Below, in pieces: positions 9,289 through 15,238 of a stretch of DNA of 64,000 bases. The notes below the pieces were generated by a model, which saw only the letters and a program-made list of their open reading frames with translations, did not search any database and was not told the origin of the DNA. Within the stretch, counting starts at the first letter, position 1. Each line of letters opens with the position of its first letter. The DNA lies in the NCBI RefSeq assembly GCF_015277515.1, contig NZ_CP063767.1, forward strand, positions 1,736,001 to 1,800,000, given 5' to 3'. Source of the DNA: Thermophilibacter immobilis. GTDB taxonomy: Bacteria > Actinomycetota > Coriobacteriia > Coriobacteriales > Atopobiaceae. The translations under genes and the position numbers were made by a program.

Positions 9289-11511
9289 ATGAAAATCATA
9301 AAGCGCAACGGTTCCGAGGTCACGTTCGACGTCATCAAGATCGAGAACGCCATCCGCGCGGCCAACCTCGAGGTGCCCGCTGCCGAGCGCCTCACCGATC
9401 GCGAGATCAAGTTCTCCTCTCTCAACGTCACCGACGAGTGCCTCGAGGCCGGTCACACGGTCACGGTCGAGGAGGTCCAGGACCTCGTCGAGGACCAGCT
9501 CATGGCCCTCGACCACTTTGAGGTGGCCCGTCGCTACATCATCTATCGCTACCTGCAGGGCCAGAAGCGCCAGAAGAACACCACCGACGACAAGATTCTC
9601 TCGCTGATCGAGTGCAACAACGAGGAGGTCAAGCAGGAGAACTCCAACAAGAACCCCACCGTCGTCTCGGTCCAGCGCGACTACATGGCCGGCGAGGTCT
9701 CCAAGGACCTCGCCATGCGCAAGCTGCTGCCCGCCGAGGTCGTCGACGCCCACAACGAGGGCATCATCCACTTCCACGACTCCGACTACTTCGCGCAGCA
9801 CATGCACAACTGCGACCTCATCAACCTCGAGGACATGCTCCAGAACGGCACCGTCATCTCAGGCACGCTCATCGAGCGCCCGCACAGCTTCTCGACGGCC
9901 TGCAACATCGCCACGCAGATCATCGCGCAGGTGGCCTCCTGCCAGTACGGCGGCCAGTCCATCTCGCTCACCCACCTCGCACCGTTCGTGGACGTCTCCC
10001 GCAAGAAGATCCGTCGCCAGGTCGCGGCCGAGATGGAGGCCATCGACGCCCACCCCGGCGAGGAGAAGCTCAACCAGATCGTTGAGAAGCGCCTGCGCGA
10101 GGAGGTCTCGCGTGGCGTCCAGACCATTCAGTACCAGGTCGTCACCCTCATGACCACCAACGGCCAGGCGCCCTTCATCACCGTCTTCATGTACCTCAAC
10201 GAGGCCAACAACGAGCAGGAGAAGGCGGATCTGGCCCTGTGCATCGAGGAGATGCTGCGTCAGCGCTATCAGGGCGTCAAGAACGAGGAGGGCGTCTGGA
10301 TCACGCCGGCCTTCCCCAAGCTCATCTACGTCCTCGAGCCGGACAACGTGGCCGAGGGCACGCCGTACTTCTACCTCACCAAGCTCGCGGCCAAGTGCAC
10401 CGCCCGCCGCATGGTGCCCGACTACATCTCCGAGAAGAAGATGCACGAGTACAAGCTCTCCAAGGGCGAGGTCGAGGGTGAGGGCGACGTCTACACCTGC
10501 ATGGGCTGCCGCTCCTTCCTCACGCCCGACCGCTCGGGCAACGGCTACGACAACGTGGCCAAGGCCGGCAACTACGAGCCGGGCAAGCCCAAGTACTACG
10601 GACGCTTCAACCAGGGCGTCGTGACCATCAACCTGCCCGACGTGGCGCTTTCCGCCAAGGGCGACATGGACCGCTTCTGGGAGATCTTCGACGAGCGCTT
10701 GGAGCTCTGCCACCGCGCCCTGCGCTGCCGCCACGAGCGTCTGCTCGGCACCCTCTCTGACGCCGCGCCGATTCTGTGGCAGTACGGTGCGCTCGCCCGC
10801 CTGGACAAGGGCGAGAGAATCGACAAGCTCCTCTACGGCGGCTACTCCACGATCAGCCTCGGCTACGCGGGCCTCTACGAGTGCGTCAAGGCCATGACCG
10901 GCCACAGCCATACCGACCACGAGGCTACGCCGTTCGCGCTGTCCGTCATGCAGCGCATGAACGACAAGTGCAACGAGTGGAAGGCCGCCGAGAACATCGA
11001 CTACTCGCTCTACGGCACCCCGCTCGAGTCCACGACCTACAAGTTCGCAAAGTGCCTCCAGCGCCGCTTCGGCATCATCGAGGGCATCACGGACAAGGGC
11101 TACATCACCAACAGCTATCACGTCCATGTGAGCGAGGAGATCGACGCCTTCACCAAGCTGCAGTTCGAGAGCGAGTTCCAGCGCCTCTCCCCCGGCGGGG
11201 CCATCTCCTACGTGGAGGTCCCCAACATGCAGGACAACCTCGAGGCCGTCATCTCCGTCATGCAGTACATCTATGACCACATCATGTACGCCGAGCTCAA
11301 CACCAAGAGCGACTACTGCCAGGAGTGCGGCTACGACGGTGAGATCAAAATTGTGGAGGACGACGGCAAGCTCGTCTGGGAGTGCCCCAACTGCGGCAAC
11401 CGCGACCAGTCCAAGATGAACGTGGCCCGTCGCACCTGCGGCTACATAGGCACTCAGTTCTGGAACCAGGGGCGCACGGAGGAGATCAAGGACCGCGTGC
11501 TGCACCTGTAA
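9289..11511 (+). CDS. nrdD: Anaerobic ribonucleoside-triphosphate reductase, large subunit
   Basis: A 740-residue class III enzyme that reduces ribonucleoside triphosphates to deoxy forms using a glycyl radical. An ATP-cone allosteric domain fills about residues 1-90 (IIKRNGSEVTFDVIKIENAI), followed by the catalytic barrel. The C-terminus has a four-cysteine zinc site (CQECGYD and CPNCGN) and the glycyl-radical loop RTCGYIG at about residues 715-721. It needs the NrdG activase, encoded 171 bp downstream. The ATG lies 6 bp after GGGG. Use of this oxygen-sensitive enzyme fits an anaerobic lifestyle, and NrdR boxes precede it. Confidence 0.97.
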   Translation: MKIIKRNGSEVTFDVIKIENAIRAANLEVPAAERLTDREIKFSSLNVTDECLEAGHTVTVEEVQDLVEDQLMALDHFEVARRYIIYRYLQGQKRQKNTTDDKILSLIECNNEEVKQENSNKNPTVVSVQRDYMAGEVSKDLAMRKLLPAEVVDAHNEGIIHFHDSDYFAQHMHNCDLINLEDMLQNGTVISGTLIERPHSFSTACNIATQIIAQVASCQYGGQSISLTHLAPFVDVSRKKIRRQVAAEMEAIDAHPGEEKLNQIVEKRLREEVSRGVQTIQYQVVTLMTTNGQAPFITVFMYLNEANNEQEKADLALCIEEMLRQRYQGVKNEEGVWITPAFPKLIYVLEPDNVAEGTPYFYLTKLAAKCTARRMVPDYISEKKMHEYKLSKGEVEGEGDVYTCMGCRSFLTPDRSGNGYDNVAKAGNYEPGKPKYYGRFNQGVVTINLPDVALSAKGDMDRFWEIFDERLELCHRALRCRHERLLGTLSDAAPILWQYGALARLDKGERIDKLLYGGYSTISLGYAGLYECVKAMTGHSHTDHEATPFALSVMQRMNDKCNEWKAAENIDYSLYGTPLESTTYKFAKCLQRRFGIIEGITDKGYITNSYHVHVSEEIDAFTKLQFESEFQRLSPGGAISYVEVPNMQDNLEAVISVMQYIYDHIMYAELNTKSDYCQECGYDGEIKIVEDDGKLVWECPNCGNRDQSKMNVARRTCGYIGTQFWNQGRTEEIKDRVLHL

Positions 11512-11519
11512 ACTCCTGG

Positions 11520-11593
11520 GACCCGACCGAACGGGCCCAGCGCTCAGACAGTTTGCTACGCAAAAACTCGCGGTGGGCCCGTTCGGTCGGGTC
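11520..11593 (-). repeat. Variable-stem hairpin element, copy A
   Basis: Perfect 20-bp arms at 11520-11539 and 11574-11593 enclose a 34-nt core. Read on the minus strand the core contains CGCGAGTTTTTGCG, then GCAAACTGTCTGAGCG, shared with the elements at 18935, 20417 and 33143, while the arm sequence is different. It begins eight bases after the nrdD stop codon and separates nrdD from nrdG. It could be a REP/REPIN-type palindromic element that also ends or attenuates the transcript. Confidence 0.85.
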
Positions 11594-11682
11594 TGCCGCG
11601 AGACTCTTCTGTACAGCACGGGGCGTTGATCTCCTCCGTGCGCCCCGCTCCAGGCTTCGTCAAGGTTTTTTAAGGACATGAG

Positions 11683-12243: not shown

Positions 12244-12343
12244 GAGCGGGCAGGCAACGACCACTTTTGGCTCGCTTGCCCCGCGCGCGTCAAGAGGCTA
12301 GGATGGGGCCAAAGCCGGGGCGACCAGAGGAGGTGCCTTCCCC

Positions 12344-12433
12344 ATGAGTGACGGCGACAGTCACAACTTATCGATTCATCAGTCCGAGGGGGAGGCGCCC
12401 GTCGCACGGGAGAGCGAGCGCCGCTGCGCCTAG
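12344..12433 (+). CDS. Short leader ORF upstream of mgtA (29 codons)
   Basis: The ORF starts at an ATG eight bases after GAGGAGGTG, a very strong ribosome binding site for so short a frame, and ends TAG at 12431-12433. The peptide (MSDGDSHNLSIHQSEGE, then APVARESERRCA) is rich in Asp/Glu, Ser and Arg and has no domain. An intrinsic terminator begins 22 bases after its stop and the mgtA start follows. Known enterobacterial mgtA leaders encode Pro- or acid-rich peptides that make translation Mg2+-sensitive. A similar role here is inference from position, RBS and acidity only. Confidence 0.5.
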   Translation: MSDGDSHNLSIHQSEGEAPVARESERRCA

Positions 12434-12455
12434 CTTGTAGCATGCGCACCCCCGA

Positions 12456-12481
12456 GGGCTGCCCCATGGGTAGCCCTTTTT
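12456..12481 (+). terminator. Intrinsic terminator / candidate attenuator upstream of mgtA
   Basis: Stem GGGCTGCCC (12456-12464) and GGGTAGCCC (12468-12476), nine pairs with one G-U, a three-base loop CAT, and then TTTTT at 12477-12481. It lies between the leader ORF and mgtA, 27 bases before the ATG at 12509, so it would block mgtA unless read through. This is the layout of transcription attenuation. Confidence 0.8.
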
Positions 12482-12508
12482 GTTCTCCCGGGAATGCGAG
12501 GTGGCGCA

Positions 12509-15238
12509 ATGCTTCTGACCACCCTCCTCTCGCGCACCCCAACGCGCGCGAGCAAGAACCAGAGCCAGCGCACGACCGTCTCCGGGCGCTCATGGCTGCA
12601 GCACGTGGCCGAGCTCTCCGGTGCCGAGGTCCTCGACGAGCTCGGGGCCCACCCGCGCGGGCTCGCCGCCGACGAGGTCGACGCCATGCGCTCCTTCTGG
12701 GGCGAGAACCGCATGGCCCACACCGAGCGTCCGGCGCTGCCCCGTCGCGTGCTCGGTGCCTTTGCCGACCCCTTCACCTACATCCTCGTCGTCATCGCCA
12801 TCGTGTCCGTGCTCACGGACTGGGCCTTCGCCGAGGCGTCCCAGCGCAGCCTCACCACGCCCGCGATCATCGGCCTCATGGTGCTCATCTCGGGCGTTCT
12901 GCGCTTCGTCCAGAACGAGCGCAGCGGCAACGCCGCCGCCGCCCTGGCCGAGATGATCGAGACCACCTGCAACGTCGAGCGCGAGGGCGCCGGCCGCGCC
13001 GAGGTCCCCCTCGACGAGATCGTGGTCGGAGACGTCGTGCACCTCTGCTCCGGCGACATCGTCCCCGCCGACCTGCGCATCCTCACGGCACGCGACCTCT
13101 TTGTGAGCCAGTCGTCGCTCACGGGGGAGTCCGCGCCGGTCGAGAAGCGCGCGGCGGCCACCGAAGGCGATGCCGCCGACGCGACCGTGACCGACCTCGA
13201 GAGCCTCGTGTTTCTCGGCAGCACGGTGATCTCGGGAACCGCCACCGGGGTCGTGGTGGCCACCGGCGAGCGCACCCTGTTCGGCGAGGCCGCCGGCTCC
13301 CTCGGCCCCATGGCCACCGCGCGCCAGACCTCGTCGGATGCGGGCATCGCCGCCACGAGCCGCCTGCTCGTGGGGCTCATGGTCGTCATGGTACCCGCGG
13401 TGTTCCTGATCTCGGGCCTCACCAAGGGCGACTGGCTCGCCGCGCTGCTCTTCTCGTTGGCCGTGGCCGTGGGCCTCACGCCCGAGATGCTGCCGATGCT
13501 CGTGACCGTCTGCCTGGGCAAGGGTGCCGTCGACCTCTCCGGGGACCGGGTCATCGTCAAGCGCCTCGACGCGATCTCGGACTTGGGGGCCATGGACGTG
13601 CTCTGCTGCGACAAGACCGGAACCCTGACCGAGGACCGCGTCATCTTGGAGCGCCACCTCGACGTGCGGGGCAACAGGGACGTGCGCGTGCTGCGCGCCG
13701 CCTTTCTCAACAGCTTCTTCGAGACCGGCGTCAAGAACCTCATCGACTCCGCCATCATCCGCCGTGCGCTCGAGGAGGACGAGGACGCCGAGGAGCTCTG
13801 CGGGCGTTACACCCTTGTCGACGAGCTCCCCTTCGACTTCGAGCGCCGGCGTCTGAGCGTCGTGGTGGGAGACGAGGCGGGCCGCACCCGCATGATCTGC
13901 AAGGGGGCCATCGAGGAGATTCTCTCCGTCTGCAGCCAGGTCGAGCTCGACGCAATCCGCGAGCCGCTCACGCCCGAGCTCGAGCGCACGGTCATGGCGC
14001 GCGCCGCGGGCCTCTCCGAGCGGGGCATGCGCGTGCTGGGCGTCGCCCTCAAGGACGACCCGGCCGGGGCCGACCGGCTCACCACCGCCGACGAGAAGGA
14101 CATGGTCCTCGTGGGCTACCTCGCGTTTCTGGACCCGCCCAAGGAGACGGCGGCGAAGGCGGTCAGGGCGCTGGCCGAGCACGGGGTGTCGACGAAGGTC
14201 CTGACCGGGGACTCTTCGCGCGTGGCCGTCTACGTGTGCGAGACCATAGGCATCCCCGTTGAGGGCGTGCTCACGGGCTCCGAGGTCGAGGCCATGGACG
14301 ACGCCGAGCTCACCAGCCGCGTGGAGCGGACCTCGGTCTTTGCCAAGCTGGCACCGGCGAGCAAGGCGCGCGTCGTGAGCACCCTGCGCGACCTCGGGCA
14401 CGTCGTGGGCTTCATGGGTGACGGCGTGAACGACGCGGCCGCGATGGGAGCCTCCGACTGCGGCGTCTCCGTGGACTCCGCCGTCGACGTGGCTCGCGAG
14501 GCCGCCGACGTCATCTTGCTCGAGAAGGACCTCATGGTTCTCGAGCGTGGCATCGTCTGCGGGCGCCGCACGCTGGCCAACATGTTCAAGTACGTGAAGA
14601 TGACCGTGAGCTCCAACTTCGGCAACATCATCTCGGTGATCGTGGCCGCGACCCTGCTGCCGTTTCTGCCCATGGGACCGGTCCAGCTGCTCCTTCTGAA
14701 CCTCATCTACGACCTCACCTGCACGGCGCTGCCCTGGGACGGCGTCGACGACGAGCTCGTGCGCGGCCCACGCGTGTGGGACAGCTCATCCGTCAAGAGC
14801 TTCATGTTCTGGATGGGGCCCGTGAGCTCGCTGTTCGACATCCTCACGTTTGTCGCACTCTTCTTCTGGATCTGCCCTGCGGTGACGGGTGGGACCTGGG
14901 GCACCCTCGATGCCACGGGACAGGTCGTCTTCGTGGCCGTGTTCCAGTCCGGCTGGTTCGTCGAGAGCATGTGGTCGCAGACGCTCGCCGTCCACCTCAT
15001 GCGCACGGCGCGTCGCCCGTTTCTGGACAGCCGCGCCGCGGCGCCGCTCACCGTGCTAGGGCTCGCGGGAATCGCGCTGGCCACCGTGCTGCCGTTCACG
15101 CCCGTTGCCGCCGCGCTCGACTTCGCGGCGCTGCCCGCGAGCTACTTTGCGCTGCTCGCCGGGGTCGTCGTGGGCTACGTCTGCGTCCTGGCGCTCGTCA
15201 AGCACCTCTACGTCCGCCGCCACGGGGAGTTCCTGTAG
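12509..15238 (+). CDS. mgtA: Magnesium-translocating P-type ATPase (MgtA-like)
   Basis: A 909-residue P3B-type cation ATPase of the inner membrane, importing Mg2+. It has the actuator motif TGES (SLTGESAPVE), the phosphorylation motif DKTGTLTED with the aspartate at about residue 368, the hinge GDGVNDAAAMGASDCGVSVDSA, and about ten membrane helices (four before the P domain, six after). The membrane sequence GLTPEMLPMLV matches the MgtA/MgtB group. The ATG at 12509 with GAGGTGG four bases upstream is preferred over the in-frame ATG at 12494. The leader ORF and terminator upstream suggest attenuation control. No match to the known M-box riboswitch was recognised. Confidence 0.92.
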   Translation: MLLTTLLSRTPTRASKNQSQRTTVSGRSWLQHVAELSGAEVLDELGAHPRGLAADEVDAMRSFWGENRMAHTERPALPRRVLGAFADPFTYILVVIAIVSVLTDWAFAEASQRSLTTPAIIGLMVLISGVLRFVQNERSGNAAAALAEMIETTCNVEREGAGRAEVPLDEIVVGDVVHLCSGDIVPADLRILTARDLFVSQSSLTGESAPVEKRAAATEGDAADATVTDLESLVFLGSTVISGTATGVVVATGERTLFGEAAGSLGPMATARQTSSDAGIAATSRLLVGLMVVMVPAVFLISGLTKGDWLAALLFSLAVAVGLTPEMLPMLVTVCLGKGAVDLSGDRVIVKRLDAISDLGAMDVLCCDKTGTLTEDRVILERHLDVRGNRDVRVLRAAFLNSFFETGVKNLIDSAIIRRALEEDEDAEELCGRYTLVDELPFDFERRRLSVVVGDEAGRTRMICKGAIEEILSVCSQVELDAIREPLTPELERTVMARAAGLSERGMRVLGVALKDDPAGADRLTTADEKDMVLVGYLAFLDPPKETAAKAVRALAEHGVSTKVLTGDSSRVAVYVCETIGIPVEGVLTGSEVEAMDDAELTSRVERTSVFAKLAPASKARVVSTLRDLGHVVGFMGDGVNDAAAMGASDCGVSVDSAVDVAREAADVILLEKDLMVLERGIVCGRRTLANMFKYVKMTVSSNFGNIISVIVAATLLPFLPMGPVQLLLLNLIYDLTCTALPWDGVDDELVRGPRVWDSSSVKSFMFWMGPVSSLFDILTFVALFFWICPAVTGGTWGTLDATGQVVFVAVFQSGWFVESMWSQTLAVHLMRTARRPFLDSRAAAPLTVLGLAGIALATVLPFTPVAAALDFAALPASYFALLAGVVVGYVCVLALVKHLYVRRHGEFL

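Follow-up and report, generated by a model that had tools for sequence, protein, structure and literature searches.

What controls expression of mgtA, the gene for a Mg2+-translocating P-type ATPase, in Thermophilibacter immobilis? We analyzed a 64,000-nucleotide stretch of this genome (contig NZ_CP063767.1, positions 1,736,001 to 1,800,000; referred to as the window), in which a short leader open reading frame (ORF) lies upstream of mgtA. An earlier interpretation, here called the sequence-only reading, had noted a 29-codon ORF with a strong ribosome-binding site (RBS), followed by a stem with five T residues and then mgtA, and had suggested attenuation by a translated leader. All of these elements are present. 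We found that the best explanation for them is probably a ribosome-mediated transcription attenuator of mgtA, a reading to which we give a probability of roughly 60%. Sequence comparison supports it through a conserved ORF, frame-specific AGU codons, two mutually exclusive and covarying RNA helices, a promoter upstream of the leader, and an intrinsic terminator in the clade of the window. The features of the locus are as follows.

12276..12304, + strand: candidate promoter for the leader and mgtA, TTGCCC-N17-TAGGAT (weighted sigma-70 scan, z = 4.1); transcription start expected at ~12311.
12329..12343, + strand: Shine-Dalgarno sequence of the leader and spacer (segment 1); 12332-12343 pairs with 12388-12399 (12 base pairs; z = -4.4 in the window).
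12344..12433, + strand: leader ORF, 29 amino acids, MSDGDSHNLSIHQSEGEAPVARESERRCA (direct reading; conservation and codon choice).
12380..12399, + strand: segment 2, the switching strand in the middle of the ORF; its partner is segment 1 (12332-12343) or segment 3 (12449-12461; z = -2.0 in the window).
12449..12461, + strand: segment 3; pairs with 12380-12392 (11 base pairs, tandem G.A) and overlaps the 5' stem of the terminator.
12454..12484, + strand: intrinsic terminator, stem-loop (12454-12478) and U-tract (terminator scan; fold z = -3.5).
12509..15238, + strand: mgtA, Mg2+-translocating P-type ATPase (TIGR01524), with Shine-Dalgarno sequence GCGAGGTGG (profile match).

The leader ORF runs from an ATG at 12344 to a TAG at 12431-12433, and its ATG is ten bases downstream of the Shine-Dalgarno sequence GGAGG (12329-12333). 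The identity of MgtA is clear from its match to TIGR01524 (1020 bits, versus a cut-off of 611), and translation of mgtA most likely starts at the ATG at 12509.

The leader is conserved in front of mgtA. We drew mgtA orthologues from the genus and family of the window and inspected the DNA upstream. A leader ORF was present upstream of 55 of the ~65 orthologues examined from the family, bearing out the conservation that the sequence-only reading had named as a check. The family leaders have 18-45 codons, are preceded by GGAGGTG or a near variant, mostly start with M-[S/D]-D/A-x-x-S, and in nearly all cases lie ~130-320 bases upstream of mgtA. Leaders of this kind also occur before mgtA in a second family (MEGSHSRKTCMSPSARREDSVFA and others, L084-L101) and, in a single case, in a third (L163, MDDSCSAIPLRQ...). 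A scan for MgtA in public named genomes gave six loci, among them one from Rhodococcus (L074) with the leader MDEPPSRLSTRITMTDGGRRAL, and two further actinomycetes also have a leader before mgtA (L168, MSPDRSPCSALVR; L173, MSDDHSRLTCPSG...). The suggestion that this is a solution particular to Coriobacteriia is thus too narrow. In some genomes there are tandem mgtA genes: in the pair L033/L054 only the first copy has a leader, and the second copy in another genome (L024) lacks one too.

The leader also appears to be specific to mgtA. In pattern searches of 193 genomes, leaders with two in-frame AGT codons behind GGAGGTG were found solely before mgtA; the remaining matches (e.g., ATGCCAGCACAGTC...) either had AGT out of frame or looked like the starts of other genes. 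No such leader was found upstream of the other P-type ATPase genes in the genome that contains the window (L067-L069). Separately, a conserved gene start, GGAGGTGn(5-8)ATGCC[AC]GC[AT]CAGTC[AC]AAGT (MPAQSK...), occurs in both families (L118-L120, L131-L135) and is apparently unrelated to mgtA.

Short ORFs and hairpins are frequent in GC-rich DNA, and the locus might simply consist of an ordinary terminator plus an ORF that arose by chance between nrdG and mgtA, without any regulatory link. We consider this very improbable. It is contradicted by the conservation of the leader and by the codon bias and covariation described below, and the leader remains with mgtA at two loci (L006 and L008) at which a different gene lies upstream. 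Judging by its conserved position, start motif, and codon choice, the leader ORF in the window is not a chance ORF.

The codons at the start of the leader are strongly biased and frame-specific. We used a set of 43 dereplicated leaders; enrichment in codons 2-10 was tested in 40 of these, omitting three that are AT-rich. In the first 11 codons, 61 of 63 AGT triplets were in frame, spread over 35 leaders. There were 53 AGT codons in codons 2-10, compared to 0.4 expected from codon usage in mgtA, and only 3 in the remainder of the leader ORFs. That is, AGU accounted for 59 of 99 early serine codons in the leaders, versus 1.9% of the serine codons in mgtA genes. In the window, the in-frame AGT codons are at 12347-12349 and 12359-12361. 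AGA, AAA, CGA, and ATA were likewise enriched early in the leaders and G-ending codons were depleted. Asp, His, and Cys mostly kept their usual C-ending codons, indicating that the early bias is not a general shift in codon usage. Replacing AGU with other serine codons shifted the folding energy by an average of less than 1 kcal/mol, and the choice of AGU is therefore not explained by RNA structure. These constrained in-frame codons suggest that the leader is translated, as a ribosome-mediated attenuator would require. The reading-frame phase of a CATGG motif in the middle of the ORF carried no information. In four leaders (L031, L070, L014, and L013), AGTCAC repeats grow or shrink by whole codons, giving Ser-His repeats (SHSHSHS), which suggests variation by replication slippage inside the leader peptide.

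The same codons could indicate an attenuator that responds to charged transfer RNA (tRNA). In this case the in-frame AGU codons would sense decoding by tRNA-Ser(GCU), and mgtA would follow the supply of serine or Ser-tRNA, as in attenuators of amino acid operons, and not Mg2+ directly. The abundance and frame of AGU, its retention while Asp, His, and Cys codons are mostly the usual ones, and the failure of RNA structure to explain it are all as expected from such a sensor. However, 8 of the 43 leaders lack an early AGU in frame, the rare codons AAA, CGA, AGA, and ATA are enriched as well, and we know of no physiological link between serine and MgtA. We regard this alternative as unlikely, though it is the strongest of those considered here.

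The sequence-only reading had emphasized the acidic residues of the leader peptide (6 of 29 in the window). Such residues are indeed common near the N-terminus: at least one is found within residues 2-6 in 40 of 43 leaders. A pair of acidic residues within residues 2-6 is found in 12 of 43 leaders, including that of the window (D-x-D, D3-G-D5). The corresponding figures are 9% of sequence windows in MgtA and, among other genes of the window, 5 of 29. The acidic residues are nevertheless secondary; the key features are the AGU codons and the fact that the leader sequesters its own RBS, neither of which the sequence-only reading had noticed.

Sequestration of the RBS is due to a helix between segments 1 and 2 (helix 1:2), formed by the leader RBS and the mid-ORF strand. 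The mean z score of helix 1:2 was -2.4 over 42 leaders (-4.4 in the window). In contrast, none of the 26 control genes, all with strong Shine-Dalgarno sequences, was below -2, and their mean was +0.3. We also did a partner-swap permutation test with 27 leaders that are less than 70% identical. Cognate segments paired better than swapped ones (-20.35 versus -17.09 kcal/mol; 0 of 20,000 permutations). There are compensatory differences between leaders (window, CCTTCCCC/GGGGGAGG; L045, GCCAACC/GGTTGGTGC; L064, GTGCTTTAT/GATAAAGTGC), including distant ones (L074, GGTGACCGCCGT/ACGGCGGTCGCC; L173, GATCCGTCG/CGACGGATC). The distance from the ATG to segment 2 is 37 nucleotides in most leaders of the genus of the window and of genus g8.

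The RBS lies within the hairpin in almost all leaders, and the spacing is the same in most leaders of two genera. This is also what might be expected of an RNA that senses Mg2+ directly, with the hairpin melting at low Mg2+ to free the leader RBS and the peptide and its codons having no role. Such a mechanism leaves the in-frame AGU codons unexplained, and the leader has no match to the M-box or any other Rfam family. We think it somewhat less probable than sensing of charged tRNA. A search of Rfam with 11-16 kb of the window gave no credible match (three chance matches that scored far under the gathering threshold and lay outside the leader), and a search with the whole window and six relatives gave nothing at gathering score. 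For the M-box riboswitch (RF00380) there was no match at E <= 10 in the first search nor at gathering score in the second, in agreement with the sequence-only reading, in which no M-box had been recognized.

Segment 2 can pair alternatively with segment 3 (helix 2:3), which is usually 45-75 bases upstream of mgtA and overlaps the terminator stem in the clade of the window. In the window, helices 1:2 and 2:3 share 12388-12392 and are mutually exclusive. Cognate segments again paired better than swapped ones (-17.23 versus -14.92; 0 of 20,000 permutations, same 27 leaders). Examples are L007 (GGUCCAUGGGAG/CUCCCACGGGCC, 11 of 12 positions paired) and the window (12380-12392/12449-12461, z = -2.0). 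In three leaders of the second family (L089, L090, and L101) there is a very strong hairpin, AAACCACCACAAAGG...CCTTTGTGGTGGTT, between the leader and mgtA with no immediate U-run; the mid-ORF strand is a possible pairing partner for the loop of this hairpin, GGTGCC.

We also considered pairing between the 3' end of the ORF and the RBS of mgtA. This would allow translational control, in which the hairpin gates translation of the leader and that translation then opens the mgtA RBS. Two leaders (L007 and L008) can form such a pairing, with z of about -2.3 and -1.5, but a general signal was absent: the mean z was -0.2, and swapped partners paired as well in 13,516 of 20,000 cases. We consider translational control improbable, slightly more so than direct sensing of Mg2+ by the RNA.

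The leader and mgtA are likely transcribed together. In a weighted sigma-70 scan of 42 leaders, a promoter-like site with 16-18-base spacing was found 25-70 bases upstream of the leader ATG, with a mean z of 1.65 (18 leaders above 2; 4.1 in the window). The same scan gave no signal between the terminator and mgtA (mean z of 0.05 just upstream of mgtA). The sequence-only reading had named two findings that would count against it: a leader ORF that is not conserved or translated, and a promoter for mgtA downstream of the terminator. Since the ORF is conserved and the promoter is upstream, neither applies, so far as sequence tells.

In the window, an intrinsic terminator stands before the structural gene. 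It begins 20-22 bases past the leader stop codon and has 11 pairs including G.T (7 of them G-C), a loop of 3, and five T residues at 12477-12481. The 50-base terminator region had a z of -3.5 relative to dinucleotide shuffles, the second lowest of 46 leaders. A terminator with a U-tract is strong in the window, present in near relatives, and confined to this clade. In its lowest-energy fold, the window leader combines helix 1:2 with the terminator (-80.4, versus -67.8 for the fold with helix 2:3 enforced).

Based on these results, we propose the following for ribosome-mediated attenuation; translation of the leader and the order of events are inferred. A single transcript from the promoter at 12276-12304 would carry the leader ORF, the terminator, and mgtA. 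If no ribosome initiates, segment 1 would pair with segment 2, the terminator would form, and mgtA would be off. A ribosome held on the first ~ten codons, with their rare AGU serine codons and acidic residues, would cover segment 1 and leave segment 2 available to segment 3 as the RNA emerges, opposing the terminator stem and turning mgtA on. A ribosome that runs on quickly would cover segment 2, and the terminator would form, leaving mgtA off. The signal may be low Mg2+ acting through slow or destabilized early elongation, which we favor by analogy with the drop-off at acidic residues of MgtL.

Several observations weigh against this model. When segment 1 is covered, the terminator is more stable at equilibrium (-52.3) than the full helix 2:3 (-45.6), by 6.7 kcal/mol, and helix 2:3 is ahead only until the end of the transcript passes ~12474. 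Antitermination must therefore be kinetic, occurring as the RNA emerges, or helix 2:3 serves mainly to pause or delay. Helix 1:2 is weak in some leaders of the second family. Two earlier tests, with other segment boundaries or with mismatches forbidden, gave helix 2:3 a score close to zero; in the later test mismatches were permitted, the segment was wider, and segment 2 was placed by hand in two leaders. Helix 2:3 thus has real support, though less than helix 1:2. Lastly, the U-tract is missing in most other genera, in which the off-switch would be Rho or translational. The RNA after the ORF in other genera often has more C than G; in those without a U-tract this is compatible with Rho but no proof of it.

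Upstream, between nrdD and nrdG (11469-11646), the window has two nested near-perfect inverted repeats (26-nucleotide arms, 92% complementary; 24-nucleotide arms, 96%). The outer arm is an inverted copy of the 3' end of nrdD. These repeats are either terminator-like or a small palindromic insertion.

The proposed attenuator resembles several known systems. Like the MgtL/mgtA leader of enterobacteria (as summarized in PMC11282234), it has a short ORF with early acidic residues between the promoter and mgtA, alternative RNA structures, and, as proposed here, premature termination as the off-state. Unlike in that system, the RBS of the leader itself serves as segment 1, the terminator in the window is intrinsic rather than Rho-dependent, and AGU serine codons take the place of Glu-Pro-Asp-Pro. 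No resemblance to the EPDP peptide was seen in the leader peptides listed, in line with the sequence-only reading that the two leaders are unrelated in sequence. As in the trp, his, and leu attenuators, there is a leader ORF whose codons look regulatory, an intrinsic terminator, and a set of pairings (1:2, 2:3, and 3:4) that exclude one another. However, the target is a cation pump and not an amino acid operon, helix 1:2 hides the leader RBS, and the codons are between segments 1 and 2. In the Actinomycetota, the pe20 M-box of Mycobacterium tuberculosis similarly combines an RNA leader, a conserved small ORF, and Mg2+-related genes (PMC12810186), but there is no M-box at the window leader, and a homologue of MgtA is absent from M. 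tuberculosis (PMC12810186). In the tandem attenuators of Salmonella mgtCBR (PMC3641672), an operon for Mg2+ transport is likewise preceded by a leader whose short ORFs act through alternative stem-loops; they involve other genes and bacteria, and there is only one ORF here. In the literature searched, which mostly does not cover subscription journals, we found no publication that deals with a leader of mgtA in these bacteria. We saw no description of the arrangement in the databases and papers that we searched, and it appears to be a variant of a known attenuator type that extends beyond Coriobacteriia.

A broader, more tentative possibility is that there is an Actinomycetota-wide class of attenuators in which AGU serine codons beside early acidic residues are the sensor. 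Early elongation at AGU (wobble decoding by tRNA-Ser GCU) would be slowed or destabilized by low Mg2+ or low Ser-tRNA, and dwell time on the first ten codons would be read out as expression of the pump. If ribosome-mediated attenuation is correct, these bacteria would have a counterpart of MgtL, unrelated in sequence, that couples expression of a Mg2+ pump to ribosomes starting a leader peptide, in a phylum for which only M-box riboswitches turned up among the papers searched. The frame- and codon-specific conservation of AGU makes what the ribosome senses at low Mg2+ directly testable, and the element would mark regulation of mgtA in many genomes of Coriobacteriales and in some other Actinomycetota.
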